Positions 1 through 19,420 of a stretch of 64,000 nucleotides of DNA are shown piece by piece. Below the pieces are notes generated by a model that was not told the origin of the DNA, ran no database searches, and worked only from the letters and a program-made list of their open reading frames with translations. Location of the stretch: positions 186,001 to 250,000 of the forward strand of contig DAICXZ010000006.1 in NCBI GenBank assembly GCA_027311945.1. The letters are read 5' to 3'. The first letter of the stretch is position 1. Every line of letters starts with the position of its first letter. This stretch comes from Erythrobacter sp. Lineage in GTDB: Bacteria; Pseudomonadota; Alphaproteobacteria; Sphingomonadales; Sphingomonadaceae. The translations under genes and the position numbers were made by a program.

Positions 1-1979
1 GGTACATCTTCGGTCAGATGGGCATCGACGTAGGAGAAGCTGCCCTGGATGCTCAGTTCGGGAATGGGACGCGCCTGGAACGTCGCTTCGAAACCTTCCG
101 ACCGGGCCTTGCCGCCGTTGATGGTGATGCCGGTCACGCCATAAGTCGTGGCCGAGGCGACCTGAATGCCCTCCCAGTCGATGTGGAAGTAGGCCAGGTT
201 CAGGTTCAAGCGGCGATCGAACAGCTCCAGCCGGGTGCCGATTTCGAGGTTCTTGGTCTCGTCCGGCCCATACTGGATCTCGTTCGGCAGGGCGCAGATG
301 AGCTGCGGCCCGTCGTACTGCGTCGGATCGGTCGGCGTCCCGTCGGGGCAGGGGGCGACCCTGTTGGGTCCGCCGATGCGATAGCCCTTCGAGTAAGTTC
401 CGTAGATCATCAGCTCATCGGAGATGTCGAACGAAGTATTGAACTTCCATACCCAGCCATCCTCGCCGCCCGTGCCACCAGCAGCAGTCAGGTCATAGGG
501 GCTGAGCGGGTCGCCAAGCAGCGGAAGCGCAGCGGCACCAGAGATTTCCGAGGTGTAATCGAAGTAACGCGCGCCGCCGGTTACCTGCCACTGCGGGATG
601 ATCTGCAAGGTCGCTTCGCCAAAGACCGCCTTTTCCTTCACTTGCGAGCTGACGAAGCTCACATATTCGAGGCACTCGGGGTTGGACGACTGGTCGCACC
701 ACGGGTGGTTCGACAAGATTTCGGCGTAGTCCGACTGGTAATCGTTCCGGTTGAAAAATCCGCCGAGCACCCAGCTAACCGGCCCACCGTGGGTGGATAC
801 GAAGCGGACCTCCACATTGTGCTGTTTGCGCAGAGTGTCGGACTGGGTGTAACCGGAGAAGCCCGGATAGTTCTCGTAGCCATAGTCAAGGTCGAGCAGC
901 AGGTCCGTAACGTCGCTGCTGCTGGAGACAGCCGTCTCGGTATAGGCCGCGGTAGCCACGAGATCGACGATGTCGGCGATGTTGGCGTTGACCTCGAGGC
1001 TTGCCAGATGGCCATGCCGATCGACTGGCTCGGCGTAGCGGCTGGCGTTCTCGTAGAGCCCCGTTCCCATCACGCCGAAGCTGTTGCTTTGCGCACCTTC
1101 GGTCTTGGTCTGCTGATAGGCATAGGTGAAGTTAAAGGAGATATCGTCGCTCGGCGCGACCAGCAACTGGTTGCGGGTGGTTACGGTGCGCTCGTAATTG
1201 AGGTTGTCGCGGCGATAGAGGTTCGCGTCGTACTGCTCGGGCGAATAATTGGGGTTACCCGGGCCGCCGGGCTGCGGGATCGAGATGCCCGGCTCCTGCA
1301 CCAGCAGCGGATAGTCTATAAAGCCGGGATCGTAGGTGTAGCCGGTGGCCGAGCGGAAGGCGATGTGATCGCGCATGATCGGAATGTTGATCACGCCATC
1401 AACGTCGAAGCCAACATCGTCGGCGTGAGCCTTCATCGACCCGCCAACGTGGACTTCGCCCTCGAACGTGTCGAGGTTAGGCCGCGTGGGAATGTAGCGG
1501 ATTGCGCCTGCCAGAGTACCGAGGCCGTAAAGCGTGCCCTGTGGGCCAAGCAGTGTTTCGACACGCTCGATATCGAGGAACTTGAAGTCGTAGTACATCG
1601 GGACTTCGCCGAGGTAGATGCCCATTGCGCTATCATAGGCGGTGCCGGTGGCGGCCACATCGGAAGCGCGCAGGCCGCGCAGCACGATCGTGCCGGTCGA
1701 TCCCGCACCGGTGTCGGAGACGGTCATGCCGGGGGTGAAATCGGCGATGTCGCGGATGTCCTCGACCTGCTGCCGTTCAAGCTCTTCGCTGGAGAGCGCG
1801 GTGATGTTGATCGGGGTGTCCATCAGCGTGGTCGCGCGGCGGGTGGCGGTGACGACGATCGCATCGTTGGTTGTCGTCGTTGTCACCTCCTGCGCGACGG
1901 CAGGCGTGGCGAAGGCAGCGGTGCCTGTGATGGCGGTTGCCATCATCAGCTTCAGCTTGATTCTGGAGCATTTTTTCAT
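1..1979 (-). CDS. TonB-dependent outer membrane receptor, 3' end outside window
   Basis: The reading frame opens at an ATG whose first codon is at 1979 and stays open to the window edge, so about 659 residues are seen and the C-terminal barrel end is missing. Residues 1-30 are a signal peptide ending AVAQ; a TonB box-like stretch with IVVTATRR follows at about 41-48. Next comes a plug domain (TPINITALSSEELE, then a segment ending IVLRGL). This is the usual start of sphingomonad receptors that import substrates other than siderophores, powered by TonB-ExbBD. It lies 191 bases downstream of, and in the same direction as, a di-iron hydroxylase gene. It could bring in the substrate of the neighbouring catabolic island, but the ligand cannot be read from sequence. 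Confidence 0.93.
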   Translation of the reverse strand, partial: MKKCSRIKLKLMMATAITGTAAFATPAVAQEVTTTTTNDAIVVTATRRATTLMDTPINITALSSEELERQQVEDIRDIADFTPGMTVSDTGAGSTGTIVLRGLRASDVAATGTAYDSAMGIYLGEVPMYYDFKFLDIERVETLLGPQGTLYGLGTLAGAIRYIPTRPNLDTFEGEVHVGGSMKAHADDVGFDVDGVINIPIMRDHIAFRSATGYTYDPGFIDYPLLVQEPGISIPQPGGPGNPNYSPEQYDANLYRRDNLNYERTVTTRNQLLVAPSDDISFNFTYAYQQTKTEGAQSNSFGVMGTGLYENASRYAEPVDRHGHLASLEVNANIADIVDLVATAAYTETAVSSSSDVTDLLLDLDYGYENYPGFSGYTQSDTLRKQHNVEVRFVSTHGGPVSWVLGGFFNRNDYQSDYAEILSNHPWCDQSSNPECLEYVSFVSSQVKEKAVFGEATLQIIPQWQVTGGARYFDYTSEISGAAALPLLGDPLSPYDLTAAGGTGGEDGWVWKFNTSFDISDELMIYGTYSKGYRIGGPNRVAPCPDGTPTDPTQYDGPQLICALPNEIQYGPDETKNLEIGTRLELFDRRLNLNLAYFHIDWEGIQVASATTYGVTGITINGGKARSEGFEATFQARPIPELSIQGSFSYVDAHLTEDV

Positions 1980-2170
1980 TGTGCAATCCCTCATGCTTTT
2001 GGTTGTGTTTGTCCGGGCTCCGGAGCGCGCCGAAACCTGAGAATTTCAGATTGGAGAGCAGTTGAACTGGCCCTTGGTTCTTTCATGATGGAACCGTGAT
2101 GGCCGTTTCTTGCCGGAGTTTGTGTGCGGTCCCGTATTCTGGTGGGCTCTTGCTCCCTTGCCTTGCTTGA

Positions 2171-3163
2171 TTAGCCGTCTGCGTCGGCGGTTTTCGCCCG
2201 CGCAGCGCTGGCCCTGTCGAGCAGCGGCTGGAACGGGAACATGAACTGTTCGTAGATGCTCAGCCGCCGGCGATCGTCCTGCCCGACGATGGCGGATTCG
2301 CCATCGCGGTAGGTGCCGAAGATGCGGTCGAACACGATCACCGAATTGCCATAGTTGCAGCGCGTGTCCTCATAGCTGAGGGCGGTGTGGTGCAGGCTGT
2401 GGTTACGGATGGTGGTGAAGAGGAAGCCGTAGGCGAGGGGCGGGTCCGAGCGGACATTGGCATGGGCGAAGGTCGAGATCACCGTCATCATCGATAGCCC
2501 GCAAAAGATGGCCACGATGTCGAAATCGAACAGCGCCACCACCGAAAGGCTGATCAGGAACAGCTCAATCGGATTGCCGACCGCGCCCTTCATCGCGTTG
2601 AGCTGGGTCACGTGGTGATGCGGGGCGTGGGTGAGCCAGAGCGGCAGCCAGTTGTGCATCCAGCGGTGCATCCAGTACTGGCCGAACTCGATCAGGAACA
2701 CGACCATCAGGGCCTGCACCACCAGCGGCAGCGTGAGGATCCACGGGGTCGAAAGGCCGAGTTTGTCCTTCGCAGCGCCCAGCGGACCATCGGCGAAGCT
2801 CTCGACCAACCAGCCGATGACGGTCGCCATCAGGATCACGTAGAACAGGTCGGTAAGGAATTCCTTCCAGGTCAGCCGCCAGCCCGAATGCCGCTCGAGC
2901 ACGAACTCGAGACCGAGGATGAAGACGGTGATCGCGCTGGTGACGATCACCAGACTCCATTCGCTGGTGGTGAAGGAGCGCGGCGCCAGCAGCCAGAAAG
3001 CCACCACCGCCAGAAGCGTTGCCAGCGGCACCGAATTGATCAGCGCCAGCTTGATGCGGTCAGCGATAGTGGCGGGCGTTGGTGGAGCCTTGGCATCGAG
3101 CGTAACCGCTGACAGGGTGGCGATGCCCCCGGTCTGGTTGTTCGTCGCTCGTTCCATAGACAA
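2171..3163 (-). CDS. Sterol desaturase/fatty acid hydroxylase superfamily membrane protein (copy 1)
   Basis: A 330-residue integral membrane di-iron oxygenase. It carries the superfamily's histidine clusters HRWMH (166-170), HAPHH (179-183) and HSLHH (255-259), plus hydrophobic segments at about 43-60, 70-88, 103-120 and 143-162. Family members hydroxylate or desaturate hydrophobic substrates with O2 and electrons from a ferredoxin or cytochrome. It is a clear paralogue of the protein at 17216-18208, sharing LTWKEF, FGQYWMHR and LWLTHAPHH stretches, so the two probably act on the same or related compounds. A second in-frame ATG lies two codons downstream. A palindrome at 3258-3283 sits upstream and resembles sites before two other operons here. 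Substrate unknown. Confidence 0.9.
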   Translation of the reverse strand: MSMERATNNQTGGIATLSAVTLDAKAPPTPATIADRIKLALINSVPLATLLAVVAFWLLAPRSFTTSEWSLVIVTSAITVFILGLEFVLERHSGWRLTWKEFLTDLFYVILMATVIGWLVESFADGPLGAAKDKLGLSTPWILTLPLVVQALMVVFLIEFGQYWMHRWMHNWLPLWLTHAPHHHVTQLNAMKGAVGNPIELFLISLSVVALFDFDIVAIFCGLSMMTVISTFAHANVRSDPPLAYGFLFTTIRNHSLHHTALSYEDTRCNYGNSVIVFDRIFGTYRDGESAIVGQDDRRRLSIYEQFMFPFQPLLDRASAARAKTADADG

Positions 3164-3257: not shown

Positions 3258-3283
3258 TATTACCTAATCGGTCAAGAGTATTA
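3258..3283. promoter_or_regulatory. Palindromic operator candidate, site A (TATTAC-N14-GTATTA)
   Basis: On the plus strand TATTAC at 3258-3263 is followed after 14 bases by GTATTA at 3278-3283, one mismatch from a perfect inverted repeat. Read toward the hydroxylase gene, the spacer holds CTTGACC and the far side CTATAGCCT. Both are also present at site B (17093-17118). It lies about 95 bases before the hydroxylase start. The long-spacer dyad is the type bound by NikR-like proteins. Binding is inferred, not shown. Confidence 0.6.
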
Positions 3284-3583: not shown

Positions 3584-4522
3584 TCAGTCTTTGCCTGCGG
3601 TCCACCAGGTGAGCGTGTGGACGTCGTGCGCGCTGGTCCAGATGCCTTCGGGCGTATAGCGCAGCGCGCCGCTGCCCTCGGCCCGGCCGACGCGTGCGAC
3701 CACCTCGGCGGTGGAGGCGTCGATCACCACGAAGGTCTGATCGTCGGTCGTGCGCAGGAACACCTTGCCCTCGCCTGTGTCGATGTCGCCCCACTTGAGG
3801 TTGTCGCCCACCTTGGTGCGGCCGACCACCTCGCGCGTTTCAGGGTCTATGCGCGCCAACGTGCCGTCGCCCTGTTCCTGAATCCACACCATGCCTTCGC
3901 CCGCGACGAGGAAGCCGGGGGTCTTGCCGAGTTCGATCGTGTCGGTGACGGTGTTGGTCTCGGGATCTATCCGCTGCATCGTGCCGCCTTCGCCGCTCGC
4001 CGCCCACAGCGCGTCGAAGCCGTAGGCGAGATAGGTGGTGCCTGCGGCGACCGGGATGCTGGCAACCACGGTGTTCGTTTCAGGGTCGATGCGTGAGATC
4101 GTGCCCTCGGCCTGGTTCGGTGCCCAGACCGAGCCTGCGCCCGCCACCACGTTCTGCTCGCCGCTCGGGCCGATGCCGGCGGGGATCTTCTCGAGCACCT
4201 CGGCGGTGCGCGGGTCGACCCGGTAAAGTTCGCCGCCGTCGCAGTTGCCGACCCACAGCGACTCCGCCGCCATCGCCATCGTACCGCAGGGGCGCGGCAC
4301 TGCCACAGTGGTTACCTTGCCCATGGTCGACCACTGCTCGATCCGGCCCTTGTTGGTGGCCCACACCGTGTTGCCGTCCACCAGCAGGAAGTCGGCGAAG
4401 TCGGGCACTTCGATGACCTCTTCGATGTATCCGGCATCCGCCGCCTCGCCATCGGCGGGATCGGCATCGGCAGTGGAACAGGCGCCCAGCAGGACGGCGG
4501 CAAGGGCGATGGACTTCTTCAT
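3584..4522 (-). CDS. YncE/Vgb-like beta-propeller lipoprotein
   Basis: The start at 4522 (MKKS) is preferred over an ATG five codons upstream because it gives a clean lipoprotein signal with lipobox LGAC, the cysteine being residue 15. The mature 312-residue protein consists of about seven repeats around RIDPETNTV-type motifs (RVDPRTAEV, RIDPETNTV twice, RIDPETREV). This is the pattern of YVTN/NHL or virginiamycin-B-lyase-like propellers, which usually act as periplasmic binding or scaffold domains. It is the last gene of a three-gene minus-strand operon after two MBL-fold genes, 31 bases downstream of the second. Any enzymatic role is unproven; a periplasmic accessory of the MBL enzyme is plausible. 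Confidence 0.8.
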   Translation of the reverse strand: MKKSIALAAVLLGACSTADADPADGEAADAGYIEEVIEVPDFADFLLVDGNTVWATNKGRIEQWSTMGKVTTVAVPRPCGTMAMAAESLWVGNCDGGELYRVDPRTAEVLEKIPAGIGPSGEQNVVAGAGSVWAPNQAEGTISRIDPETNTVVASIPVAAGTTYLAYGFDALWAASGEGGTMQRIDPETNTVTDTIELGKTPGFLVAGEGMVWIQEQGDGTLARIDPETREVVGRTKVGDNLKWGDIDTGEGKVFLRTTDDQTFVVIDASTAEVVARVGRAEGSGALRYTPEGIWTSAHDVHTLTWWTAGKD

Positions 4523-4553: not shown

Positions 4554-5558
4554 TCAGCTGTAGCGATAGGGGTTCACGTCGATGGTGGTGGTGCCTCGCG
4601 TCTGGTTGCACAGGAACACGGTGCCAGTGAAGTAGATGCCCGGCTCGGTGATGGTCTTGGCATATTCGTAGGTTTCGCGCAGTTGCTCGACCGTCATCTG
4701 CACGGGCGCTTCGTCGGGCTGCCAGGTCATGCCGTAGGGGTAGTCCTCGCCGTCCTTGCTGATCTCCACGTGGCAGCCCATCACGTGGGTCACGGGATGG
4801 GTGTCCACGAACTCGATCAGCCGGCCCATGCTTTCGAACCACGGCTCCCAGAAGCTGATGTAGCAGCGGCCACGGTAGAACATGTCGCCGGTGTAGAGGA
4901 TCTGGGTGTAGCTGTCGTAATAGGCGAATTCGGAGATGACGTGGCCGGGTGAGCCCCAGATCAGCACCTCGCGTCCGCCCAGATCGAGCGTGACCTGCTC
5001 TTCGGGGAAGTTGGTCATGCCCCAGAAGCCGACCATTTCTTCGTGCGTCAGCCCCATATACCGGGTCTTCGGCCGGTCGGCGAACTGGTTGACGGCGGCA
5101 TAGTGATCGGCGTGCAGGTGGCTGAAGGCGACCAGCAATTCCATATCCGCCGGATCGCGCCCGTTGCGCGCGCACCATTCGTTGATGCATTCATCCACCA
5201 CGCCGCGCAGGTCCCAGTCGTTGCGCCAGGTGGTAAAGCCTTCGTCCAGCAGCAGCACCCGGTCGTTGCCGAAGTAGAGCGGGGCGAACGGCGCCTCGTA
5301 GCTATAGGCCTTATTCTGCCGCAGGATCGCGGTATGGGCGTTGTACCAGTGTACCTGCACCTGCGGATCGGTGTTATCCATCAAGGATTCCGAACCGCAG
5401 ATCCACCGGTCCGGAAAACCGCCCGGTGCGGGCAGGTTGCTGGTGAAGTCGATCGGCTTGGGACTGGTGGCGGCCTTTGCCGCAGCGCTGAAAGTGGTCA
5501 GCGCCGTCGGTACGGCGACCGCGGCGGCATTGTATGACAGGAAGGTGCGACGATCCAT
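4554..5558 (-). CDS. Exported MBL-fold metallo-hydrolase with intact zinc motif
   Basis: A 334-residue metallo-beta-lactamase-fold hydrolase. The N-terminus (DRRTFL, then a hydrophobic alanine-rich run to about residue 30) looks like a Tat signal, so the enzyme is probably periplasmic. The zinc ligands are present: HLHADH at 147-152, the histidine of SPGH at 206, the aspartate of YTGD at 225 and the histidine of GCH at 263. It shares its N-terminal layout and FGN..LL.D.G signature with the upstream neighbour at 5583-6683, which lacks the first motif. The two genes are 24 bases apart and clearly cotranscribed. Substrate unknown; the family includes lactonases, esterases and sulfatases. Confidence 0.85.
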   Translation of the reverse strand: MDRRTFLSYNAAAVAVPTALTTFSAAAKAATSPKPIDFTSNLPAPGGFPDRWICGSESLMDNTDPQVQVHWYNAHTAILRQNKAYSYEAPFAPLYFGNDRVLLLDEGFTTWRNDWDLRGVVDECINEWCARNGRDPADMELLVAFSHLHADHYAAVNQFADRPKTRYMGLTHEEMVGFWGMTNFPEEQVTLDLGGREVLIWGSPGHVISEFAYYDSYTQILYTGDMFYRGRCYISFWEPWFESMGRLIEFVDTHPVTHVMGCHVEISKDGEDYPYGMTWQPDEAPVQMTVEQLRETYEYAKTITEPGIYFTGTVFLCNQTRGTTTIDVNPYRYS

Positions 5559-5582: not shown

Positions 5583-6683
5583 TCAGTAAGGCTGGGGCGC
5601 GGTGATGTTCGGCACGCCCTCCGGCCATTCGCCCGCGCGCGCATCGGGGCTGACCCCGTTGAACAGGACGAAATCGGGACGGATGAACTTGACCTCGCGG
5701 CCCTGAACCTCGCGGGCACTGGCCAGCGCATCGTCGATCATGGCAGGCGTCATTTCGAGCACCCGCTCATAGGGCTTGTAGGTGGCAAAGCGGGGGTAGT
5801 GCTTGCCGGGAACGAACATCATGTCGATGTGCCCGCCGAGTATCCATTGCACCGGATTGGCCGACGCAAAGCCCTGCAAGCGTTCCAGCGAAGTGACAAA
5901 ATCGCCGTCGTTGCTGATATTGATGCAGCCGGGAAACAGCAGATCGCCGGTGAACAGGATGTCACAATAGGGATCGTAGAAGCTGACCCCGTCCTTATGC
6001 GTCCCCGGCGTGGGGATGACGGTGATCACACGGTCGCCGAGGTCGATGGTGCCGGTGCCATTGGGCCAGTTCGATGACAGGCCATAGTGCTGCTTCATCA
6101 CGCCCAGCGGCTTGGGCACGATTGTGGTGTGGGGCCGGTCCATGAACTGTACCAGGCCCTGATTTTGCGCGACGTCTTCGCCGCTGGTGAAGGCGATGGT
6201 AAGCGGCACGGTCTTGCGCCCGCGCGCATCGGCCCAGCGCCCGATCACTGCATCCACGGTTTCGCGCAAGGGGTAGTAATCGCCATTGGCGGTTGCGCCG
6301 GTGTCGATCAGCAGCGCGCCGTTGTTGCCGAACAGAAGGTGGGTGAACGGTGCCTGCCAGTTGATGCAGACATTCTGGCGCATCACGAAGGTATCCTCGT
6401 TGTATTGCACCACTTGCACGCGCGGATCCCGGTTCTTGGCGGCGACGTTGCTGCCGTAGGTCCAGCGGAAACCCAACCGCCCGGCAGCGGGGCCTTCGGC
6501 ATCGTAATTGTGGATGACCGGCTCTGCGGGATGGAGCGGCAGCGCCGAACCCGTGTTGCGCACACCGGGCGGGTTGTAGCCCGCATCCGGGTTGCCGTTC
6601 GGATAGCTTCGCAAGGTCGATGACTGCGGATTTCCCGACAGGGCGGGATTATAGGTCGGTTTGGACTGCGGCGTTTGCGGCAT
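5583..6683 (-). CDS. MBL-fold protein with degenerate HxHxDH motif
   Basis: A 366-residue paralogue of the next gene, sharing YN..T...RQN, APF..L.FGN and L.D.G stretches and the later ligands (TH at 228-229, TGD at 245-247, GGH at 283-285). At the position of HLHADH it reads SGEDVA (167-172), so two histidines, the metal-bridging aspartate and the last histidine are all replaced. There is no signal peptide; instead it has about 60 proline-, asparagine- and serine-rich residues. By family logic it should bind at most one metal ion and is likely a non-hydrolytic partner, a binding protein or an enzyme with changed chemistry. It is first in the operon, divergent from the ABC transporter genes, sharing the control region with site C. 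Confidence 0.8.
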   Translation of the reverse strand: MPQTPQSKPTYNPALSGNPQSSTLRSYPNGNPDAGYNPPGVRNTGSALPLHPAEPVIHNYDAEGPAAGRLGFRWTYGSNVAAKNRDPRVQVVQYNEDTFVMRQNVCINWQAPFTHLLFGNNGALLIDTGATANGDYYPLRETVDAVIGRWADARGRKTVPLTIAFTSGEDVAQNQGLVQFMDRPHTTIVPKPLGVMKQHYGLSSNWPNGTGTIDLGDRVITVIPTPGTHKDGVSFYDPYCDILFTGDLLFPGCINISNDGDFVTSLERLQGFASANPVQWILGGHIDMMFVPGKHYPRFATYKPYERVLEMTPAMIDDALASAREVQGREVKFIRPDFVLFNGVSPDARAGEWPEGVPNITAPQPY

Positions 6684-6797
6684 CGAAAACTCCTGCTTGG
6701 GCCGCTGGGTTAGCGGCCGTGGCTGTGCCTCCGATGCATTCCCTCATCCTGCGGAGAGTTCGCGCCCCTCACGTCTGAATGGCGGCGAGCATATGGA

Positions 6798-6823
6798 TAT
6801 TACGCAAGATGACAATAGTAATA
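6798..6823. promoter_or_regulatory. Palindromic operator candidate, site C (TATTAC-N14-GTAATA)
   Basis: TATTAC at 6798-6803 and GTAATA at 6818-6823 form a perfect 6-bp inverted repeat around 14 bases. It lies 64 bases before the start of the ABC binding protein and about 115 bases before the divergent MBL operon, so it could control both. Sites A and B match it with one mismatch each. I looked here for a guanidine riboswitch (ykkC type) and saw none. Confidence 0.65.
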
Positions 6824-6886
6824 AATTGCGCTGGACATGCCTTGCGTTTGCGGCAATGCTGCGATTGCGAAAAAGGAGTTGTGCCG

Positions 6887-7972
6887 ATGATGAGTGCTGT
6901 ACGCCGCCTTGGTTCTGTCGCGATGATGGCAGGTGCTTTGCTGCTGGCCTCGTGTTCCTCAGGAGGCGAGGAGGCAGCCGAGCCGAAGACCTCGTTCAAG
7001 ATCGGCTGGTCGATTTACGCCGGGTGGATGCCCTGGCCCTATGCCGATCAGGCCGGGATCGTGAAGAAGTGGGCCGACAAGTACGGCATCGAGATCGAGA
7101 TCGTGCAGGTCAACGACTATGTCGAATCGGTCACGCAATATGCCGCCGGCCAGCTCGATGGCGTGACTGTCGCCAATATGGATGCGCTCACCATTCCTGC
7201 CGCGCAGGGGCATGACACCACCGCGATCATCGTCGGTGACTACTCGAACGGCAACGACGGCGTGCTGCTCAAGGGCAGCGATTCGCTGGCCGCGATCAAA
7301 GGGCGGCAGGTCAATCTGGTCGAGCTTTCGGTGTCGCACTATCTGCTCGCCCGTGCGCTCGAGAAGGAAGGCCTCGCGATGACCGACGTGCGCACGGTCA
7401 ACACCGCCGATGCCGATATCGCCAGCGCCTTTACTTCTCCGCAGGTGACCGCGGCGGTGGCGTGGAACCCGCAGCTCACCACCATGATGCAGCAGCCCGA
7501 TGCGAACCTGGTGTTCAGCTCCAAAGACATTCCCGGTGAAATCCTCGACCTGCTGGTGGTCGACACCGATACGGTCAAAGCCAACCCCAATCTGGGCAAG
7601 GCGCTGGCCGGTATCTGGTACGAGACGCTGGCGCTGATGGAGCAGCAGAACGAAGCCGGTGCCTCGGCCCGCGCGGCCATGGCCGAACTGGCGGGCACGA
7701 CGCCCGAGATGTTCGAGGGCCAGCTGGCGACCACCTTCCTTTATGTCGATCCCAAGGCAGCCGTCGAAGCGACGCGCTCGCCAACACTGATCGAGAACAT
7801 GACCCGCGTGCGCGACTTCAGCTTTGCGCAGGGGCTGTTCGGGCAGGGCGCCAGCTCGGCCGATGCGATCGGCATGGCGTTCCCCGGCGGCAAGACGCTT
7901 GGCGATACGAACAACATCACGCTCCGCTTCGACGACAGCTTCATGCAGATGGCAGCCGACGGTGCGCTCTAA
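6887..7972 (+). CDS. ABC transporter substrate-binding lipoprotein, urea-carboxylase-region type
   Basis: The start at 6887 follows an AAAAGGAG ribosome site and yields a lipoprotein signal ending LLLASC, giving about 361 residues. An earlier in-frame ATG at 6779 adds 36 residues without signal character. The mature part (FKIGWSIYAGWMPWPYADQAG, then GQLDGVTVANMDAL) is that of NitT/TauT-family binding proteins found beside urea carboxylase genes. In light of the carboxyguanidine deiminase work the ligand is more likely guanidine or a derivative than urea. It heads a plus-strand operon running without a break to the allophanate hydrolase. Confidence 0.9.
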   Translation: MMSAVRRLGSVAMMAGALLLASCSSGGEEAAEPKTSFKIGWSIYAGWMPWPYADQAGIVKKWADKYGIEIEIVQVNDYVESVTQYAAGQLDGVTVANMDALTIPAAQGHDTTAIIVGDYSNGNDGVLLKGSDSLAAIKGRQVNLVELSVSHYLLARALEKEGLAMTDVRTVNTADADIASAFTSPQVTAAVAWNPQLTTMMQQPDANLVFSSKDIPGEILDLLVVDTDTVKANPNLGKALAGIWYETLALMEQQNEAGASARAAMAELAGTTPEMFEGQLATTFLYVDPKAAVEATRSPTLIENMTRVRDFSFAQGLFGQGASSADAIGMAFPGGKTLGDTNNITLRFDDSFMQMAADGAL

Positions 7973-11047: not shown

Positions 11048-11683
11048 ATGACTGTTGACCCGGGAACTGAAGGCCTTTCCGGCACCATAATCCACGACGA
11101 GCTGGTGCCCGCCCGCGCGCCCTGGCTGCACCATGTTGCCGCAGGGCAGACGCTGCGCATTGTCGATGTTGAAGGCAATCAGGCGGTCGACTTCCTGCTC
11201 TATTCCGCCGCCGACGATGTGGAGCGCTACAGCGCGCAGGATACCGTCTCCGCGCAGGGCAACCTGTTCCTGCGCAAGGGCAGCATGCTGCGCTCGAACG
11301 AAGGGCGGCCGATGGCGACGATCACCGGCACCTCGGTCGACTATCACGACACCATCGGCGGCGCCTGTTCGTGCGAGTCGAACACGCTGCGTTATGGCCA
11401 CCACACCAAGGCGCAGCATGCCTGTGTTGACAACTTCCTCGAAGCCAACCTCACCGAGGGGCGAGGCAAGCGCGACATTGTGTCAAACATCAACTTCTTC
11501 ATGAACGTGCCGGTCGAAGCCGATGGCTCGCTTGGCATTGTCGACGGAATTTCCGCGCCCGGCCTCACGGTCGATCTGCGCGCAGAGATGGATATTATCG
11601 TGGTCGTTTCGAATTGTCCGCAAATCAACAACCCGTGCAACGCCTTCAACCCCACCCCGGTGCGGATGATCGTTTCGGCATGA
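11048..11683 (+). CDS. Urea-carboxylase-associated protein 1 type (DUF1989), carboxyguanidine deiminase subunit
   Basis: A 211-residue DUF1989 protein, partner of the preceding gene. Family features include LRIVDVEGNQAVDFLLY, the glycine/cysteine segment GGACSCESN, HACVDNF and RAEMDIIVVVSNCPQINNPCN, with cysteine and histidine residues that may form a metal or catalytic site. A GGAAAGG ribosome site precedes the ATG, 20 bases after the other subunit. Its stop overlaps the carboxylase start. Two such subunits beside a biotin carboxylase argue that the pathway substrate is guanidine rather than urea, since urea carboxylation would need no deiminase. Confidence 0.88.
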   Translation: MTVDPGTEGLSGTIIHDELVPARAPWLHHVAAGQTLRIVDVEGNQAVDFLLYSAADDVERYSAQDTVSAQGNLFLRKGSMLRSNEGRPMATITGTSVDYHDTIGGACSCESNTLRYGHHTKAQHACVDNFLEANLTEGRGKRDIVSNINFFMNVPVEADGSLGIVDGISAPGLTVDLRAEMDIIVVVSNCPQINNPCNAFNPTPVRMIVSA

Positions 11684-14600
11684 GCAAGGGCACGGTTCTG
11701 ATCGCCAACCGCGGCGCGATCGCCACCCGCATCATCCGCACCGTCCGCGAAATGGGGCTGCGCTCGGTAGCGGTCTATTCCGAGGCCGACGCGGAATCGC
11801 TTCACGTTGCGCAGGCCGATGCCGCCGTGTGCATCGGCCCGGCGGCTGCGGCGGAGAGTTACCTCAACGTGCCCGCGATCATTGCCGCCGCCAAGGAAAC
11901 CGGCGCGACGATGATACATCCGGGCTACGGCTTTCTTGCCGAGAACGCCGAGTTCGCCGAGGCCTGCGAGGCGGCGGGCATCGCCTTCGTCGGCCCGCGG
12001 CCGGACCATATCCGCGTGTTCGGCCTCAAGCACAGCGCCCGCGCGCTGGCGGAAGAGCATGCGATCCCGCTGGCCCCCGGCACCAACCTCCTCACCGATG
12101 AAGACGAAGCGGCGGCGGCGGCCAATGCGATTGGCTACCCCGTCATCCTCAAGGCGACGGCAGGCGGCGGCGGCATCGGCATGCGCATCTGCCAAAGCGA
12201 GGCCGAGGTGCGCGAAGGCTTTGCCGGGGTCGCGCGGCAGGGCGGGGCCAGCTTCGGTGATGCGGGCGTGTTCCTCGAACGCTACATTGCGCGGGCTCGC
12301 CATATCGAGGTGCAGATTTTCGGCGACGGTGAAGGCCGCGTCATGGCGCTGGGCGAGCGCGACTGCTCGCTGCAGCGGCGCAACCAGAAGGTGGTCGAGG
12401 AAGCGCCCGCTCCGCTTTTGCCGCAAGCGGTGCGCCAGGATCTGCTCGCGGCGGCGGTGCGGCTGGCCGCGGCTGCCAACTATCGTTCGGCGGGAACGGT
12501 GGAGTTCCTCTACGATGCCGAGCGTGAGGAATTCTACTTCCTCGAAATGAACACCCGGCTCCAGGTTGAGCACGGCGTTACCGAAGAGGTGATGGGGATT
12601 GATCTGGTCGAGTGGATGCTGCGCGGCGGGATTGGCGACTATGCCTTCCTCGACGGACCCGCGCCCGAGCCCAAGGGCCACGCGGTGCAAGTGCGCGTCT
12701 ATGCCGAAGACCCGGCGCTCGACTATCGCCCCACCACCGGTACGCTAACCGCGCTGCAATTCCCGGCGAACATCCGGGCGGACACCTGGTGCGAGGCGGG
12801 CAGCACGGTCAGCGCCTGGTACGATCCGATGATCGCCAAGCTGATCACCCATGCCGATAGCCGCGATGCCGCCATCGCGGCTATGCAAAGCGCGCTCGAC
12901 GAGAGCCGGATCGACGGCATCGAGACCAACCTGCGCTGGCTACGCGACGTCGTGCGCGACGAACGGTTCGAGACCGGGCAGGTCTACACCCGGATGCTCG
13001 ACACCGTGGGCTATCACCCGCGCTCGGTCCGCGTGATTTCGGGCGGCACGGCGACTACTGTGCAGGACTGGCCGGGCCGCGAGGGGTTGTGGTCGATTGG
13101 CGTTCCGCCGTCAGGCCCGATGGACGATAACTCGTTTCGTATGGGCAATCTGGCGCTGGGCAATCCCGAAGGTACGGCGGGGCTCGAAGTCACCTTCACC
13201 GGCCCGACGCTCCAGTTCAACGCGCCTGCCACGCTGTGCCTGACCGGGGCCGATTTCGGCGCGAAGCTCGATGGCGAGCCGGTGACGCGCGGCGTGCCAT
13301 TCGACGTTGCCGAGGGGCAGACGCTGGCCCTTGGCCGGGTGAGCGGCGGGGGCATGCGCGGCTATATCCTGTTTGCAGGCGGCCTCGACATCGCGCCCTA
13401 TCTCGATAGCCATTCGACCTTCGAGCTGGGCCAGTTCGGCGGTCATGCCGCGCGGCGTCTGCTTGCAGGCGATACGCTGCACCTTGGCGGCGCTGCGGTC
13501 GATCCGGCGCTTGCAGAGGGTGTCGGCGCGCAGGAGGACTATGGCCAGCGCTGGGAAATCCGCGTGATGTATGGCCCCCACGGCGCGCCCGACTTCTTCA
13601 CCGATGGCGACATCGCCAGCGTGGTCGAGGCCGAGTGGAAGGTGCACTACAACTCCAACCGCACCGGCGTGCGGCTGGTCGGCCCCAAGCCCGAATGGGC
13701 GCGCAAGGATGGCGGCGAGGCGGGGCTTCACCCCTCGAACATCCACGACAACCCCTATGCCATCGGCGCGGTCGACTTCACCGGCGACATGCCGATCATC
13801 CTCGGGCCTGACGGGCCATCGCTGGGCGGTTTCGTCTGCCCCTTCGTGGTGATCGCGGCGGACCGGTGGAAGATCGGCCAGCTGGCACCGGGCAACCGCT
13901 TGCGCTTCGTGCCGGTCGACATCGAAACCGCCGAGGCCGCCAACCGCGAGCCGCTCGCTTTCGGCAAGCCCGAGGTGGCGGAGAGCGGAAAGGCCGTGGC
14001 TGACCTCTCGCCCGTGCTCGCTCAGACAGACGCCAGCGGGCACCGTCCGCGCACCGTCTATCGCCAGCAGGGCGACCGCAACATACTTGTCGAATATGGC
14101 CCCATCGTGCTCGATCTGGAGCTGCGCATCCGCGTTCACGCGCTGATGACGGTGCTTGAGGCCCAGGGCTTGGCGGGCGTGATCGACATCGTGCCCGGCA
14201 TCCGTTCGTTGCAGCTGCACTTTGATGGCAAGCAACTCGATCAGGCCTCAGCCTTGGCCGCACTGATCGCGGCGGAAGAGGAACTGGGCGAACTCGACGA
14301 TTTCACCATCCCCTCGCGCATCGTCCACCTGCCGCTGAGCTGGCGCGATCCGGCGACCCTCGAAACGATCGAGAAGTACATCGCCGCCGTGCGCAAGGAC
14401 GCGCCCTGGTGCCCCGACAACATCGAGTTCATCCGCCGCATCAACGGGCTGGATGATGAGGACGCGGTGCGCTCCATCGTGTTCGACGCCAGCTATCTGG
14501 TGATGGGGCTGGGCGACGTCTATCTCGGCGCGCCGGTCGCCACGCCGGTCGATCCACGCCACCGGCTGGTGACGACGAAGTACAATCCTGCGCGCACATG

Positions 14601-15282
14601 GACGCCGCCCAACGTGGTGGGCATCGGCGGCGCTTATATGTGCATCTACGGGATGGAGGGGCCGGGCGGCTATCAGCTGTTCGGGCGCACCATTCAGGTG
14701 TGGAACACCTATCGCCAGACTGACGCCTTCGTCGATGGCAAGCCGTGGCTGCTGCGTTTCTTCGATCAGATACGCTTCTATGAAGTGAGCGCCGAGGAGC
14801 TGGAGGAATGGCGGCGCGATTTCCCCGCCGGACGCCGCAGCATCGAGGTCGAGCATTCGGAGTTCCGGCTGGCTGACTACCGCCAGTTCCTCGACGACAA
14901 CGCCGAATCGATCAGTGCCTTTCAGGAGCACCGCCAGGCCGCCTTCGACGCCGAACGCGCCGAGTGGGAGCGCAACGGCGAGTTCGACCGCGTGTCCGAA
15001 CTGGTTGAGGACGCGGAGGGCGCGGCTCAGGACGAGCCTGCTGTCGAAGTGCCTGAGGGTTCCGAGGTGGTCGAGGCCCCGTTTGGCGGCAACGTGTGGA
15101 AGCTGCTCGTCAAGCAGGGCGACACGGTCGAGGCAGGCCAGACCATCGCCGTGATCGAGGCGATGAAGATGGAATGCCCGCTCGAAAGCCCCGCTGCGGG
15201 GACCATCTCCGCGCTCTACATCGAAGAGGCGCAGAACATCACCCCCGGCGCGCCGCTGCTGGCGCTGGAGGCGGAGGCATGA
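11680..15282 (+). CDS. Biotin-dependent guanidine/urea carboxylase
   Basis: A 1200-residue multidomain enzyme that uses ATP and bicarbonate to carboxylate urea or guanidine. The start at 11680 overlaps the previous stop; a longer frame from 11614 runs into that gene. Domains in order: biotin carboxylase (about 1-445, with the ATP-grasp stretch KATAGGGGIGMRI), a KipA/AHS2 carboxyltransferase part (about 450-750), a KipI/AHS1 part (about 800-1000) and a biotinyl domain whose EAMKME motif places biotin on K1163. It lacks the fused amidase of yeast urea amidolyase, which here is the next gene. Context with two deiminase subunits favours guanidine as substrate; the sequence alone does not prove it. 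Confidence 0.93.
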   Translation: MSKGTVLIANRGAIATRIIRTVREMGLRSVAVYSEADAESLHVAQADAAVCIGPAAAAESYLNVPAIIAAAKETGATMIHPGYGFLAENAEFAEACEAAGIAFVGPRPDHIRVFGLKHSARALAEEHAIPLAPGTNLLTDEDEAAAAANAIGYPVILKATAGGGGIGMRICQSEAEVREGFAGVARQGGASFGDAGVFLERYIARARHIEVQIFGDGEGRVMALGERDCSLQRRNQKVVEEAPAPLLPQAVRQDLLAAAVRLAAAANYRSAGTVEFLYDAEREEFYFLEMNTRLQVEHGVTEEVMGIDLVEWMLRGGIGDYAFLDGPAPEPKGHAVQVRVYAEDPALDYRPTTGTLTALQFPANIRADTWCEAGSTVSAWYDPMIAKLITHADSRDAAIAAMQSALDESRIDGIETNLRWLRDVVRDERFETGQVYTRMLDTVGYHPRSVRVISGGTATTVQDWPGREGLWSIGVPPSGPMDDNSFRMGNLALGNPEGTAGLEVTFTGPTLQFNAPATLCLTGADFGAKLDGEPVTRGVPFDVAEGQTLALGRVSGGGMRGYILFAGGLDIAPYLDSHSTFELGQFGGHAARRLLAGDTLHLGGAAVDPALAEGVGAQEDYGQRWEIRVMYGPHGAPDFFTDGDIASVVEAEWKVHYNSNRTGVRLVGPKPEWARKDGGEAGLHPSNIHDNPYAIGAVDFTGDMPIILGPDGPSLGGFVCPFVVIAADRWKIGQLAPGNRLRFVPVDIETAEAANREPLAFGKPEVAESGKAVADLSPVLAQTDASGHRPRTVYRQQGDRNILVEYGPIVLDLELRIRVHALMTVLEAQGLAGVIDIVPGIRSLQLHFDGKQLDQASALAALIAAEEELGELDDFTIPSRIVHLPLSWRDPATLETIEKYIAAVRKDAPWCPDNIEFIRRINGLDDEDAVRSIVFDASYLVMGLGDVYLGAPVATPVDPRHRLVTTKYNPARTWTPPNVVGIGGAYMCIYGMEGPGGYQLFGRTIQVWNTYRQTDAFVDGKPWLLRFFDQIRFYEVSAEELEEWRRDFPAGRRSIEVEHSEFRLADYRQFLDDNAESISAFQEHRQAAFDAERAEWERNGEFDRVSELVEDAEGAAQDEPAVEVPEGSEVVEAPFGGNVWKLLVKQGDTVEAGQTIAVIEAMKMECPLESPAAGTISALYIEEAQNITPGAPLLALEAEA

Positions 15283-17045
15283 GCACGCTCGAACGCCAGA
15301 GCGCGGGTGCCATCGCCGCTGCCGTCAACGCCGGGGAAGCCTCGGCGCAGGACGTGATCGCCGATGTGCTCGAACGGCTCGCCGTCTATGACAAGGTTCA
15401 GCCGCAGGCGTGGATCAGCCGCGCCGAGCCTTCGGCCTTGCTGGCAGCAGCGCAGGCGGTCGATGCGCGTATCGCTGCGGGCCAGAGCCTGCCACTGGCG
15501 GGCGTGCCCTTCGCGGTGAAGGACAATATCGACGTACTCGGCTTCATGACGACCGCCGCTTGTCCGGACTTTGCCTACGAGCCCGGCGATTCGGCGACGG
15601 TGGTGCGCAAGCTGCTGGCGGCGGGCGCGATCTGTGTCGGCAAGACCAACCTCGACCAGTTCGCCACCGGGCTTGTCGGCACCCGCAGCCCCTATGGCGT
15701 TCCGCGCAATACCTCGAACCTAGCCTATGTGAGTGGCGGATCGAGTTCTGGTTCGGCGGTGGCCGTGGCGGCGGGGCTGGTGGCCTTTGCGCTGGGCACC
15801 GATACCGCCGGTTCGGGCCGCGTGCCTGCCGCGTTCAACCACTTGGTTGGCCTGAAGCCGAGCAAGGGGCGCTGGAGCACGCAGGGACTCGTCCCCGCGT
15901 GCCGTACACTTGATTGTATCTCGGTGTTTACCGACAAGCTCGAAGATGCCGCGCTGGTCGATCAGGTGATCGCCGGGTTCGATCCGGTCGATCCCTATTC
16001 GAAGCCGTTGGTGGATTGCCCGCTTCCCGCGATGCACATTGGGGTGCCGTTGCGCCATCAGCGTCAGTTCTTCGGCGATGCCCGCTCGGAGTATCTCTAT
16101 GACAAGGCGCTGGAGCGGTTGGCGGAGCAGGGCGAGATCGTCGAGATCGACACCGCCTTCCTTTCCGAGGCTGCGGCCTTGCTCTATTCCGGACCATGGG
16201 TGGCCGAACGCACTGCCGCCATCGAGAGCCTGCTGAAAAGCAACCCTGAGGCCATCGACCCCACGGTCAGCACCGTGGTCGCGCCGGGTGAAGACATTTC
16301 GGCGGTCGCGTTGTTCAACGGCATCTATCGCCTCGCCGCCTTGCAACGACAGGCCGAGCAGATGTGGCAAGACATCGGGATGCTCGCCTTCCCGACCACC
16401 GGCACCACCTATCGGGTGAGCGAACTGGCCGCTGCGCCGGTTGCGCTGAATTCGAACCTCGGCGCTTACACCAATTTCGTAAACCTGCTCGACATGGCGG
16501 CGCTCGCGCTGCCGGCGGGCCGGCGCGCCAATGGCACGGGCTTCGGCATCACGCTGATCGGCCCGGCCGGCAGCGACCTGGCGCTGGTGGAGGCCGGAAA
16601 AACCTATCTCGCCGGAGCGGAGCTGCCTGCTCCGCCGCCGCTCGACATGGAGGGAAAGATGGAAACCGTGAAACTGGCCGTCGTTGGCGCGCACCTCAAG
16701 GACATGCCGCTTCACTGGCAGCTGACCTCGCGCGAGGCAAAATTCGTCTGTGCAACCGAAACCGCGCCGACCTATCGCCTCTATGCCATGGCCAATAGCA
16801 CGCCGCCCAAGCCCGCGCTGGTCTACAGCGAGGATGGCGCGGCCATCGCGGTCGAAGTTTACGAACTGGATGTCGCCGCTTTCGGCAGCTTCACCGCCGA
16901 GGTTCCCGCACCGCTTGCCATCGGCACCGTGACGCTTGCCGACGGCACCAGCGTTAAGGGATTTGTTGCCGAGCCGCGCGCGACCGAAGGAGCGGAGGAT
17001 ATCACGGCTCTGGGCAGCTGGCGTGCTTATATCGCGCGCGGTTAA
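15279..17045 (+). CDS. atzF: Allophanate hydrolase
   Basis: A 588-residue amidase-signature hydrolase that converts allophanate to ammonia and CO2, the last step of the pathway. It overlaps the carboxylase stop by four bases. The Ser-cisSer-Lys triad can be placed as K81 (AVKDNID), S155 (SGGSSSGSA) and S179 (GTDTAGSGR), with the same spacing as in AtzF. After about residue 460 comes the small C-terminal domain typical of full-length AtzF/DUR1-type enzymes. It is the last gene of the seven-gene operon that begins at 6887. The symbol follows the amidase family; local naming may differ. Confidence 0.92.
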   Translation: MSTLERQSAGAIAAAVNAGEASAQDVIADVLERLAVYDKVQPQAWISRAEPSALLAAAQAVDARIAAGQSLPLAGVPFAVKDNIDVLGFMTTAACPDFAYEPGDSATVVRKLLAAGAICVGKTNLDQFATGLVGTRSPYGVPRNTSNLAYVSGGSSSGSAVAVAAGLVAFALGTDTAGSGRVPAAFNHLVGLKPSKGRWSTQGLVPACRTLDCISVFTDKLEDAALVDQVIAGFDPVDPYSKPLVDCPLPAMHIGVPLRHQRQFFGDARSEYLYDKALERLAEQGEIVEIDTAFLSEAAALLYSGPWVAERTAAIESLLKSNPEAIDPTVSTVVAPGEDISAVALFNGIYRLAALQRQAEQMWQDIGMLAFPTTGTTYRVSELAAAPVALNSNLGAYTNFVNLLDMAALALPAGRRANGTGFGITLIGPAGSDLALVEAGKTYLAGAELPAPPPLDMEGKMETVKLAVVGAHLKDMPLHWQLTSREAKFVCATETAPTYRLYAMANSTPPKPALVYSEDGAAIAVEVYELDVAAFGSFTAEVPAPLAIGTVTLADGTSVKGFVAEPRATEGAEDITALGSWRAYIARG

Positions 17046-17092: not shown

Positions 17093-17118
17093 TATTACGC
17101 TTGACCTGATCGTTAATA
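17093..17118. promoter_or_regulatory. Palindromic operator candidate, site B (TATTAC-N14-TTAATA)
   Basis: TATTAC at 17093-17098 faces TTAATA at 17113-17118 across 14 bases, one mismatch from the site C repeat. The spacer contains CTTGACC and the right flank CTATAGCCT, both shared with site A and in the same order relative to a di-iron hydroxylase gene. It is about 98 bases before the second hydroxylase. Confidence 0.6.
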
Positions 17119-17215: not shown

Positions 17216-18208
17216 ATGGCCGGGGTTAAAGTAGGAAACAGGATTATTGGCACCCAGGCACCGGTGACGGTGGGTTGGGAAAATATACCCAAGGTGGAGG
17301 GAGGGCCGTGGAAGGTCGCCTTCTTCACCTATTTTCAGCCCGCGAGCCTGCTCGCCTTGCTGGCGTTCTGGTATTACGCGCCAAACTCCATTGCCACAGC
17401 GCAGACCGCCATCATCATCAGTCTCAGCTTCAAGGTGTTCCTGATTGCGCTGGAATTCATGGCGCCGCGGCACCGCAGCTGGATGTTGACCTGGAAGGAG
17501 TTCGTCACCGACCTGTTCTACGTCGGGATGGGCTACACAGTCGTCCGCATGATGGGCGCCTATCTGGGTGATGACGTCATCATCGAGGTGGTGCAGGGCG
17601 CGGCCGACTGGAGCAAGCTGGACTGGTTCGCCGGGATGCCGCTGCTGATCCAGGCGCTGGCGATCTCGCTGCTGTTCGACTTCGGCCAGTACTGGATGCA
17701 CCGCGGAATGCACAACTGGTATCCGCTGTGGCTGACTCACGCGCCGCACCACTACATCACCCAGCTCAACATCAACAAGGGTGCGGTCGGCAACCCGGTG
17801 GAGCTGTTCCTGATCGGCCTGGGCGTCGGCGGCTTCTTCGACTTCCTGCCGCGTGCGGCCCTGCTGGCGGGCACCTTCGGCCTCGCCATCGGCACCTATC
17901 AGCACATCAACGTGCGCTTCAACACGCCGGGCTGGTGGCGCTTCCTGTTCAACACCACCGAGCACCACAGTGTCCACCACTCGCAGGATTACGAGGCGAG
18001 CCGCAGCAACTACGGTTCGACCTGGATCATCTTCGATCGCATGTTTGGCACCTGCATCGATGGCGAAGCCGAGCAGCTCGGGATGGAAGGCGGCCGCCGG
18101 ATGACGATCAAGGAAGCCATGCACTATCCTTTCACCGAAGGGTACAACACCGTCAGGGAATGGTTCCGCTCCAAGTCCGACAAGCCGAGCGCCGTACCCG
18201 CTGAGTAA
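17216..18208 (+). CDS. Sterol desaturase/fatty acid hydroxylase superfamily membrane protein (copy 2)
   Basis: A 330-residue paralogue of the protein at 2171-3163 and of identical length. Histidine clusters are HRGMH (162-166), HAPHH (175-179) and HHSVHH (250-255), the di-iron ligands of the superfamily. Membrane stretches lie at about 40-57, 64-82, 98-113, 143-158 and 195-222. It starts its own transcription unit behind site B and is followed by a small membrane protein and a ferredoxin. The ferredoxin is a natural electron donor for such an oxygenase. Substrate is unknown; a lipid-like molecule or a hydrophobic guanidine/urea compound are both possible. Confidence 0.9.
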   Translation: MAGVKVGNRIIGTQAPVTVGWENIPKVEGGPWKVAFFTYFQPASLLALLAFWYYAPNSIATAQTAIIISLSFKVFLIALEFMAPRHRSWMLTWKEFVTDLFYVGMGYTVVRMMGAYLGDDVIIEVVQGAADWSKLDWFAGMPLLIQALAISLLFDFGQYWMHRGMHNWYPLWLTHAPHHYITQLNINKGAVGNPVELFLIGLGVGGFFDFLPRAALLAGTFGLAIGTYQHINVRFNTPGWWRFLFNTTEHHSVHHSQDYEASRSNYGSTWIIFDRMFGTCIDGEAEQLGMEGGRRMTIKEAMHYPFTEGYNTVREWFRSKSDKPSAVPAE

Positions 18209-18215
18209 TACCCCA

Positions 18216-18242: not shown

Positions 18243-18344
18243 CACCTCCTCCCAAATCACCGCAAGCACACAGTCACCATCTTGCCCCCTCATGGGCAGG
18301 CCGGTCGGCTTGTGCCTGCTCGCCAAGATCCGGAGAATGCTACA

Positions 18345-19028
18345 GTGAACCTGCCTTTCATCGACTGGGCCTGGCGCAGCCGAGGTGAGATCGCGATCGA
18401 GCCGCCACTGACGACCGAAGAGACTTTCGCGCGGCTTCAGCCGCTGGTCGACAAGGATACGACCGAGTGCGACTTCGGAGACAACACGCTGACTTACGTG
18501 AAAGGCAATCCGGCGGCGCAGGATAGGCTGGCAACCTTCTCCCAAGGCATGTTCACTGTGGAACAGCACGGCGGGCTTACCAAGGTTCTTTATGACGTGA
18601 AGAGCAACGCGCTGGCGCTGGTGCTGCTGGCTCCGCTGTTCTTCGTCGGTTTCGCGCAGATCGCCGTTGCCATCAACCACTGGGAAGATCGCAAGGCGGA
18701 GGCAGTCCAGTCCGAGGGCGAAGCAGACAAGGAAGAAGACGAGGAGCCCGCGCCGCATCACTGGATCGACGAGGCGCTAGGTGCTCCGGCTCCGGAAACG
18801 CTGGAGCAGAAGAAACAACGAATGGAGGAAGAGGGCGAGCAGAAGAAAGAGAAGCTCCCGACCACCCCCTCCTACGTTCTGGCTGGGCTGTTCCTGTTTC
18901 TCTATATCCTCGGTCGCTTCCTCGAGCCCTTCCTGTTCAGGCGGACACTCAAGCGCGCTCTCAATCTGGAACTGGCCGAGATGAAGGCTGTGGCGCCAGA
19001 GGCAGCGCAGCCCGGCCGGGCGAGCTGA
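18345..19028 (+). CDS. Unrecognised two-segment membrane protein
   Basis: The GTG start at 18345 is chosen because CGGAGA lies eight bases upstream; a longer frame from 18282 has no ribosome site. The 227-residue product has a soluble N-terminal domain (1-87), a membrane segment at 88-111, a very charged Glu/Lys-rich linker (112-172, including EEEGEQKKEK) and a second membrane segment at 176-197. I recognise no family. It lies between the di-iron hydroxylase and the ferredoxin in the same orientation, so it may anchor or organise the oxygenase system, but that is context only. Confidence 0.72.
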   Translation: MNLPFIDWAWRSRGEIAIEPPLTTEETFARLQPLVDKDTTECDFGDNTLTYVKGNPAAQDRLATFSQGMFTVEQHGGLTKVLYDVKSNALALVLLAPLFFVGFAQIAVAINHWEDRKAEAVQSEGEADKEEDEEPAPHHWIDEALGAPAPETLEQKKQRMEEEGEQKKEKLPTTPSYVLAGLFLFLYILGRFLEPFLFRRTLKRALNLELAEMKAVAPEAAQPGRAS

Positions 19029-19102
19029 ACGCGCTCCGCCAAAACACCCCTTTTCTATCCAACCACACCCGGCGCGATCCGCGCCAGCAGGAGCATTGTT
19101 CG

Positions 19103-19420
19103 ATGATTACGCTTGCCGTTACCGACCGCGAAGGAAAGCCCCACGCCATCAAGACCACGCCCGATGGCACGCTGATGGAAGCGATCCGCGACTATGGCCT
19201 GACCGACGGGTTCGCACTGTGCGGGGGGCATTGTTCGTGCGCCACCTGCCATGTGATCCTCGACGAGGCCGTGCTGCCGCTGCTGTCGCCGATCTCGGAC
19301 GATGAGAGCGGCCTGCTGGACGGCTCCGATCACCGCGAGCCTGGCTCGCGTCTCGCCTGTCAGGTGGCCCTGATGCCTGCGCTTGACCTTGCGAGTGTAA
19401 AGATCGCGCCGACCGACTAG
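19103..19420 (+). CDS. Adrenodoxin-type [2Fe-2S] ferredoxin
   Basis: A 105-residue ferredoxin. Cluster ligands are C40, C46, C49 and C86, the C-x5-C-x2-C-x36-C spacing of adrenodoxin and putidaredoxin. An additional cysteine, C44, sits inside the cluster loop (CGGHCSCATC) where related proteins often have alanine or serine. Such ferredoxins pass electrons to oxygenases. Here the likely client is one or both di-iron hydroxylases of the locus. No ferredoxin reductase gene is adjacent, so a reductase encoded elsewhere must be used. Confidence 0.9.
   Translation: MITLAVTDREGKPHAIKTTPDGTLMEAIRDYGLTDGFALCGGHCSCATCHVILDEAVLPLLSPISDDESGLLDGSDHREPGSRLACQVALMPALDLASVKIAPTD

Follow-up and report, generated by a model that had tools for sequence, protein, structure and literature searches.

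A 64,000-nucleotide stretch of an Erythrobacter genome (GCA_027311945.1, contig DAICXZ010000006.1, positions 186,001 to 250,000; the whole stretch is called the window here) opens with a gene cluster that raises a question: why should genes for the use of guanidine nitrogen stand among membrane hydroxylases, exported hydrolase-like proteins, and an outer-membrane receptor? On the minus strand lie, in order, a TonB-dependent receptor, the fatty acid hydroxylase-like protein FAH2, the beta-propeller lipoprotein PROP, and two metallo-beta-lactamase (MBL)-fold proteins, MBL1 and MBL2. The plus strand carries the substrate-binding protein (SBP), permease, and ATPase of an ATP-binding cassette (ABC) importer, a NikR-like gene, two DUF1989 subunits, a carboxylase, an allophanate hydrolase, a second hydroxylase-like protein (FAH1), the membrane protein TM18, and a ferredoxin. 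Comparison across the family indicates that core and flanking genes very probably form one guanidine regulon. The FAH2-TonB, MBL2-MBL1-PROP, and FAH1-TM18 units share an operator with the core and co-occur with it across the family.

An earlier note on this DNA had described the core as a known guanidine-nitrogen pathway, and both family assignments and signature residues confirm the carboxylase, deiminase pair, allophanate hydrolase, and importer. According to PMC11410670, the Asp at position 1584 of the K. lactis enzyme is required, and the Asp at 1330 separates guanidine carboxylase from urea carboxylase. Asp occupies both equivalent positions in all 74 aligned carboxylases, the window's own included; the core substrate is therefore guanidine, and of the "guanidine or urea" first proposed only the former holds for the core, the signature residues ruling out urea. 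The UAAP1/UAAP2 pair beside the carboxylase, together with the allophanate hydrolase, completes the gene set by which the pathway is recognized (CgdA/CgdB being equated here with UAAP1/UAAP2 without a tree of PF09347). In core genes and signature residues the island thus resembles the guanidine carboxylase pathway (gca, cgdAB, atzF, and an ABC importer); it differs in its large flanking gene set and in having a NikR-like or LysR gene in place of a riboswitch. No Rfam guanidine riboswitch reached the gathering score in the window and 16 further loci, nor was any found at E-values up to 1 in positions 6500-7100 of the window, both searches being run without a positive control. Riboswitch control of the operon was set aside on the lack of an Rfam match in these 17 stretches. 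At two loci, further DUF1989 proteins were seen: a third one (32% identical to UAAP2) lies beside a 228-residue protein at L006:9680-10270 (G000:C19:108679-109269), and a similar pair occurs in L167.

Whether the flanking genes belong with this core was addressed in 298 genomes of the family, with UAAP2 at 1e-60 standing in for the pathway; all counts and Fisher values ignore kinship, and several contigs end within the island. UAAP2 was found in 42 of the 298 genomes, representing 23 of 96 genera. FAH1 (at least 66% identity) occurs in 36 genomes, comprising 35 of the 42 with UAAP2 versus 1 of the 256 without it (Fisher 2e-37). High-identity MBL1 (at least 77%) occurs in 23 genomes, 22 of them UAAP2-positive (1e-20); any MBL1 match at 1e-40 extends this to 31 genomes, 30 with UAAP2. 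An FAH2-type protein is found in 31 genomes, 29 with UAAP2 (7e-28). Gene maps of the 42 UAAP2-positive genomes place island genes, in at least two layouts, in 35 of them and the core alone in seven. Within the stretches fetched from these 42 genomes, FAH1 and TM18 were called in 35, the TonB receptor in 33, PROP in 32, FAH2 in 26, and an MBL1- or MBL2-type gene in 31. One genome group has a rearranged layout, with FAH1-TM18, a single stand-alone MBL gene, and the TonB receptor on one side and PROP and FAH2 on the other, the gene set remaining intact. At class level, where FAH1 was the sole gene searched, it appeared at 1e-55 in 2 of 385 genomes, both of the window's own genus. Clustering beyond a single strain, which had been set as a test, is thus borne out by a conserved island across the family; co-occurrence, clustering, and shared operators together support the view that the flanking genes belong with the core. 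The ferredoxin fared less well: it is present in the window as described, but its conservation as an island member is weak, a relative having been called next to the operon or island in no more than 3 of the 42 genomes. A metagenome-assembled genome labelled Candidatus Poribacteria (L140) carries a sphingomonad-like island, which is probably contamination.

The operator-like sites noticed earlier proved real, with four copies of TATTAC-N14-GTAATA, each with at most one mismatch, preceding the island's transcription units. In 1.63 Mb of fetched stretches, the base of the pattern scan, this palindrome occurs 108 times (52 perfect copies, 56 with one mismatch), and 105 of these sites have an island gene downstream at a distance of 800 bases or less. 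With the spacer set to each of the twelve other lengths between 8 and 20, the same sequence yielded no perfect and 0-7 one-mismatch copies; five Markov resamples gave no perfect and 0-1 one-mismatch copies, and the reversed control pattern gave none. When named genomes were scanned with MBL1, a probe that picks up no more than close relatives, 46 loci emerged in sphingomonads and Acidobacteria; with 10 set aside as repeats, the site is present at 28 of 28 loci with the importer versus 0 of 8 without it. FAH1 stands away from the operon at 10 loci; five of these keep a site within about 110 bases at one mismatch or fewer, and a sixth has one with two mismatches. TTGAC or its complement falls inside the 26-mer in 55 of 97 distinct sites, and a loosely scored −10-like hexamer lies at promoter distance in 32 of the 97; this −35-like element and the spacing suggest repression. 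The longest frame of the SBP overlaps the perfect copy at 6798-6823, but its likely start at 6887-6923 leaves the operator outside the gene. Genome G138 has further copies off the island, at L107, L108, and L109 (two perfect, one with a mismatch), whose neighbors, judged by eye, are a TonB receptor with a peptidase-like and a EutB-like gene, housekeeping genes, and two flanking TonB receptors; the regulon in this genome is possibly larger.

The likely regulator, absent from the earlier note, is a NikR-family protein that lacks the nickel site. It combines ribbon-helix-helix and NikR_C domains (PF01402, PF08753), the features it shares with the nickel regulator NikR (PDB 2bj1 and relatives), and is the only homolog found in its genome (E 0.01). 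PDB 2bj1 we take to be Pyrococcus horikoshii NikR, with three His and one Cys as nickel ligands at the aligned positions. Against this structure, the first His, third His, and Cys, three of the four ligands, are replaced in 79 of 79 NikR-like proteins. The island protein also scores under the cut-offs of all five NCBIfam NikR models that it matches, most narrowly at 104.3 of 105. Known NikR operators are palindromes of two half-sites set apart. A site near the operon was found in 37 of 37 UAAP2-positive genomes with the NikR-like gene, including G032, where the gene was found by direct reading, versus 0 of 5 genomes without it (1.2e-6, kinship ignored). These patterns make it likely that the NikR-like protein is the regulator of the island, and there is perhaps an even chance that guanidine or a pathway intermediate is its ligand. 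A LysR gene lies within two genes of the importer in six genomes, five lacking the NikR-like gene and one with it, and LysR relatives (59-76% identical) lie within two genes of FAH2 in 10 other genomes, so that the same regulators touch core and flank. Islands mainly from Novosphingobium (L120, L124, L127-L130, L136, L139, L142, L143) carry an additional NikR-like gene that separates MBL2 from the importer, with no propeller called there. A pair made up of a hybrid kinase and a response regulator (c17/c18, names by eye), noted at L022 (G164), L030 (G290), and L032 (G115), was called close to the operon or island in 12 of the 42 genomes overall and is a possible extra layer of control.

Acidobacteria provide a second setting for part of the flank. 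The MBL2-MBL1 order is kept at seven acidobacterial loci, and the flanks fetched with these seven contain no guanidine genes. CgdAB homologs nonetheless occur elsewhere in all six tested acidobacterial genomes with the MBL pair, versus 14 of 151 in a class sample that includes two of these six; the three MBL1-positive genomes among the 151 are all UAAP2-positive (6e-4, two of the three being seeds). A complete carboxylase operon was read in five of the six, the sixth contig being short. In each of these five operons a propeller homolog (29-38% identity) adjoins the CgdA-type gene, and in three an Oar-like outer-membrane barrel protein with a CarboxypepD_reg domain is nearby. A search for FAH1 at E 1e-15 in 18 UAAP2-positive genomes of the acidobacterial side, seven of them with MBL1, found none. 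The role of the MBL pair therefore need not depend on FAH1. Both phyla have the pair and the propeller in the company of guanidine genes, and the hydroxylases appear to have been added in the sphingomonads.

Alignment shows the HxHxDH motif complete in MBL1, which has the fold and motif of the superfamily, and lost in MBL2; among 72 MBL2-labelled sequences only three retain it, all stand-alone relatives in the gene maps. MBL2 directly precedes MBL1 for all 23 high-identity MBL1 genes. A simple home-made rule scored a Tat (twin-arginine translocation)-like signal in 48 of 68 MBL1 proteins, 19 of which had no signal, and in 3 of 69 MBL2 proteins, 64 of which had none; many of the MBL1 failures reflect gene-caller starts placed too late. 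Two related loci, L155 and L156, show the reverse, with a Tat-type signal on MBL2 and none on MBL1, and at L152 both proteins carry a signal. These data suggest that MBL1 and MBL2 may be exported together as one folded complex. A structure model of MBL1 (predicted local distance difference test score, pLDDT, 84.7) matched, among 50 listed structures, generic metallo-beta-lactamases at template modelling (TM) scores of 0.42-0.48 to the query, with no functional hint, and a search of its sequence against the PDB (E 0.01) returned nothing useful. MBL2 is weakly similar to the quinoprotein-associated MBL family TIGR04559 (24.6 of 280 bits), as is PROP to the quinoprotein-associated propeller TIGR03866 (42.2 of 287 bits); unlike those systems, the island has no recognized quinoprotein gene.

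Pfam score and His clusters place FAH1 and FAH2 in the FA_hydroxylase superfamily. The motifs WMHRxMH and HHSxHH are present in 40 of 40 collected FAH1 sequences; FAH2 has HAPHH and HSLHH in 59 of 59 and WMHRxMH in 55 of 59. A search of the FAH1 sequence against the PDB (E 1) gave nothing useful. TM18 follows FAH1 in 37 of 37 cases and has no Pfam or NCBIfam match; no match was found for it at E 0.001, and weak helix-grip matches were not used.

The overall explanation that we marginally favor, mechanism included, treats the island as a single regulon by which the cell scavenges guanidine nitrogen. The NikR-family protein without a nickel site would act as repressor: it would occupy the operator, covering the −35 region, until guanidine or an intermediate of the pathway releases it, and would so do the work that guanidine riboswitches do in other systems. 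At the cell surface, guanidino compounds would be captured by the TonB receptor and the propeller lipoprotein; an MBL1/MBL2 heteromer, exported folded via Tat, would hydrolyze a precursor in the periplasm; and FAH1-TM18 and FAH2 would oxidize a guanidino compound at the inner membrane, freeing guanidine. That the flanking enzymes release guanidine is a tentative proposal, rather short of probable, made by analogy with MgdH/MgdL (PMC12508155). As that source describes it, the methylguanidine operon of Vreelandella boliviensis (mgdH, mgdL) likewise extends a carboxylase operon by an oxygenase whose action frees guanidine; its enzymes are a 2-oxoglutarate dioxygenase and a lyase, controlled by riboswitches, whereas the island has the unrelated FA_hydroxylase and MBL families. 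Oxidative release from a larger, perhaps hydrophobic, molecule, as the earlier note suggested, is a conjecture about the substrate. The boldest form of the proposal is doubtful as a whole: a nickel-blind NikR would have replaced riboswitches as guanidine sensor in sphingomonads, and a regulon of FA_hydroxylase, obligate membrane partner, and Tat-exported MBL heteromer would free guanidine from larger natural guanidino compounds.

Several observations weigh against this explanation, including the missing FAH1 on the acidobacterial side and, as set out below, four genomes with FAH1 but no MBL1 match and the OlsE match of both FAH proteins far under its cut-off. The second nickel-ligand His is kept in 79 of 79 NikR-like proteins. 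Genome-wide, at one mismatch, the 42 genomes hold 140 operator sites versus 147 for the reversed control; 108 of the 140 sit in the fetched stretches, a small share of these genomes, and the operator signal thus lies in position and exactness, not in count. Five of the 10 unlinked FAH1 loci have no site at one mismatch or fewer. The seven genomes with a core and no island gene indicate that no flanking gene is needed for guanidine itself. Some genomes without UAAP2 carry island genes: G106 has an intact FAH2-PROP pair, which, with the lack of FAH1 in the tested Acidobacteria, bears on oxidative release in particular; G214 has an FAH2-type protein; G292 has FAH1 beside a shortened PROP and TM18; and G254, an assembly in 300 contigs, has the MBL pair. 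Finally, a TonB receptor may be needed for guanidine itself where bacteria have few porins, and its presence therefore does not speak for a large substrate.

The alternative that survives best keeps the regulon and divides its enzymes: the MBL pair and the hydroxylases would each form a peripheral route of their own into the one core, for different guanidino compounds, and would not act in sequence. This arrangement is a serious contender, though we would not call it probable. The Acidobacteria with the MBL pair and deiminase genes fit it, as do four genomes (G167, G206, G260, G273) with FAH1 and UAAP2 and no MBL1 match at 1e-40, and the separate operators of the separate units; yet 31 of the 35 genomes with both FAH1 and UAAP2 also hold an MBL1- or MBL2-type gene in their fetched stretches. 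Less likely is a flank that serves only uptake and tolerance of free guanidine, with no larger substrate: the TonB receptor and propeller would carry it across an outer membrane with few porins, and the hydroxylases, like OlsE, would modify lipids of the cell itself and so help the membrane to withstand a chaotropic cation. The ornithine lipid hydroxylase OlsE shares the FA_hydroxylase family and His motifs with both FAH proteins and is their only NCBIfam match (E 5e-20 and 1e-19), but at 71.9 and 70.8 bits they fall far under the equivalog cut-off of 475. The membrane protein that invariably follows FAH1 and the propeller and Oar-like neighbors of acidobacterial operons would also suit such a role; the MBL pair is left unexplained by it, and the genomes with the core alone manage without FAH genes. 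That unrelated genes travel together as a genomic island, kept by hitchhiking, is very improbable: the patchy spread over 42 genomes and 23 genera and the kinship-blind counts would allow it, but the operator persists even at half of the unlinked FAH1 loci, the site tracks the regulator, and the MBL pair association recurs in another phylum.

Table 1. Genes and operator sites of the island, in window coordinates
Feature	Position	Strand	Basis or remark
TonB-dependent receptor	1..1979	-	PF00593 1.1e-40, PF07715; full gene runs 444 bases past the window's left edge
FAH2, membrane FA_hydroxylase-superfamily protein	2171..3163	-	PF04116 2e-23
Operator TATTAC-N14-GTAATA, 1 mismatch	3258..3283		Upstream of FAH2-TonB
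PROP, beta-propeller lipoprotein	3584..4522	-	PF21959/PF16819, YVTN repeats; lipobox read by eye
MBL1, MBL-fold, Tat-type N-terminus, intact HxHxDH	4554..5558	-	PF00753, alignment, structure model
MBL2, MBL1 paralog without HxHxDH	5583..6683	-	PF00753, alignment; adjoins MBL1
Operator, perfect copy	6798..6823		Between divergent MBL2-MBL1-PROP and importer operon
ABC importer substrate-binding lipoprotein (SBP), longest frame	6779..7972	+	TIGR03427 526.6 bits, cut-off 333.9
ABC permease	8015..8830	+	NCBIfam profile match
ABC ATPase	8827..9645	+	NCBIfam profile match
Operator, 1 mismatch	9615..9640		Within end of ATPase gene, directly upstream of NikR-like gene
NikR-family regulator (likely) without nickel ligand set	9658..10194	+	PF08753, PF01402
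UAAP1 / carboxyguanidine deiminase subunit (DUF1989)	10191..11027	+	TIGR03425 313.9 bits
UAAP2 / carboxyguanidine deiminase subunit (DUF1989)	11048..11683	+	TIGR03424 331.2 bits
Guanidine carboxylase, urea-carboxylase family	11680..15282	+	TIGR02712 1770 bits; Asp at K. lactis 1330 and 1584 equivalents
Allophanate hydrolase	15279..17045	+	TIGR02713 729 bits, PF21986
Operator, 1 mismatch, holds -35-like TTGAC	17093..17118		Upstream of FAH1
FAH1, membrane FA_hydroxylase-superfamily protein	17216..18208	+	PF04116 5.6e-23
TM18, membrane protein adjoining FAH1	18345..19028	+	No match in Pfam or NCBIfam
2Fe-2S ferredoxin, weakly conserved member	19103..19420	+	PF00111 5.1e-9

Profile matches recovered every gene named earlier: carboxylase, two DUF1989 proteins, allophanate hydrolase, ABC importer, two FA_hydroxylase proteins, two MBL proteins, propeller, ferredoxin, and TonB receptor (Table 1). 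The genome that carries the island measures 3.04 Mb, and its MBL1 is 96% identical to those of Aurantiacibacter xanthus and A. suaedae; the lineage is close to Aurantiacibacter. To the left of the window, a tetratricopeptide repeat (TPR)-sulfotransferase gene adjoins the TonB receptor (L004:7906-9486), with such genes called close to the operon in 32 of the 42 UAAP2-positive genomes; two small proteins that accompany it, exported as judged by eye and without a Pfam match, were called in 19 and 14 of the 42. To the right of the island lie a SPINDLY-like gene, thiD, and glmM (names by eye).

The guanidine carboxylase pathway itself is known; what appears new, judging from sequence comparison, is a candidate protein sensor, a shared operator, and putative peripheral enzymes tied to the pathway. 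No paper in the literature searched links urea carboxylase to both a fatty acid hydroxylase and a TonB-dependent receptor, guanidine carboxylase to TonB, guanidine and urea carboxylase to NikR, or guanidine and carboxyguanidine to a ribbon-helix-helix protein. A 2025 review counts the natural source of guanidine as a major gap (PMC12186494). The regulon offers, in sphingomonads that can be cultivated, a short set of possible enzymes together with a putative protein sensor and an operator. That guanidine use goes together with a propeller and a protein of the outer membrane in two phyla bears on competition for guanidine nitrogen in water and soil. If the sensor and the guanidine-releasing enzymes are as proposed, they would reveal a natural source of environmental guanidine.

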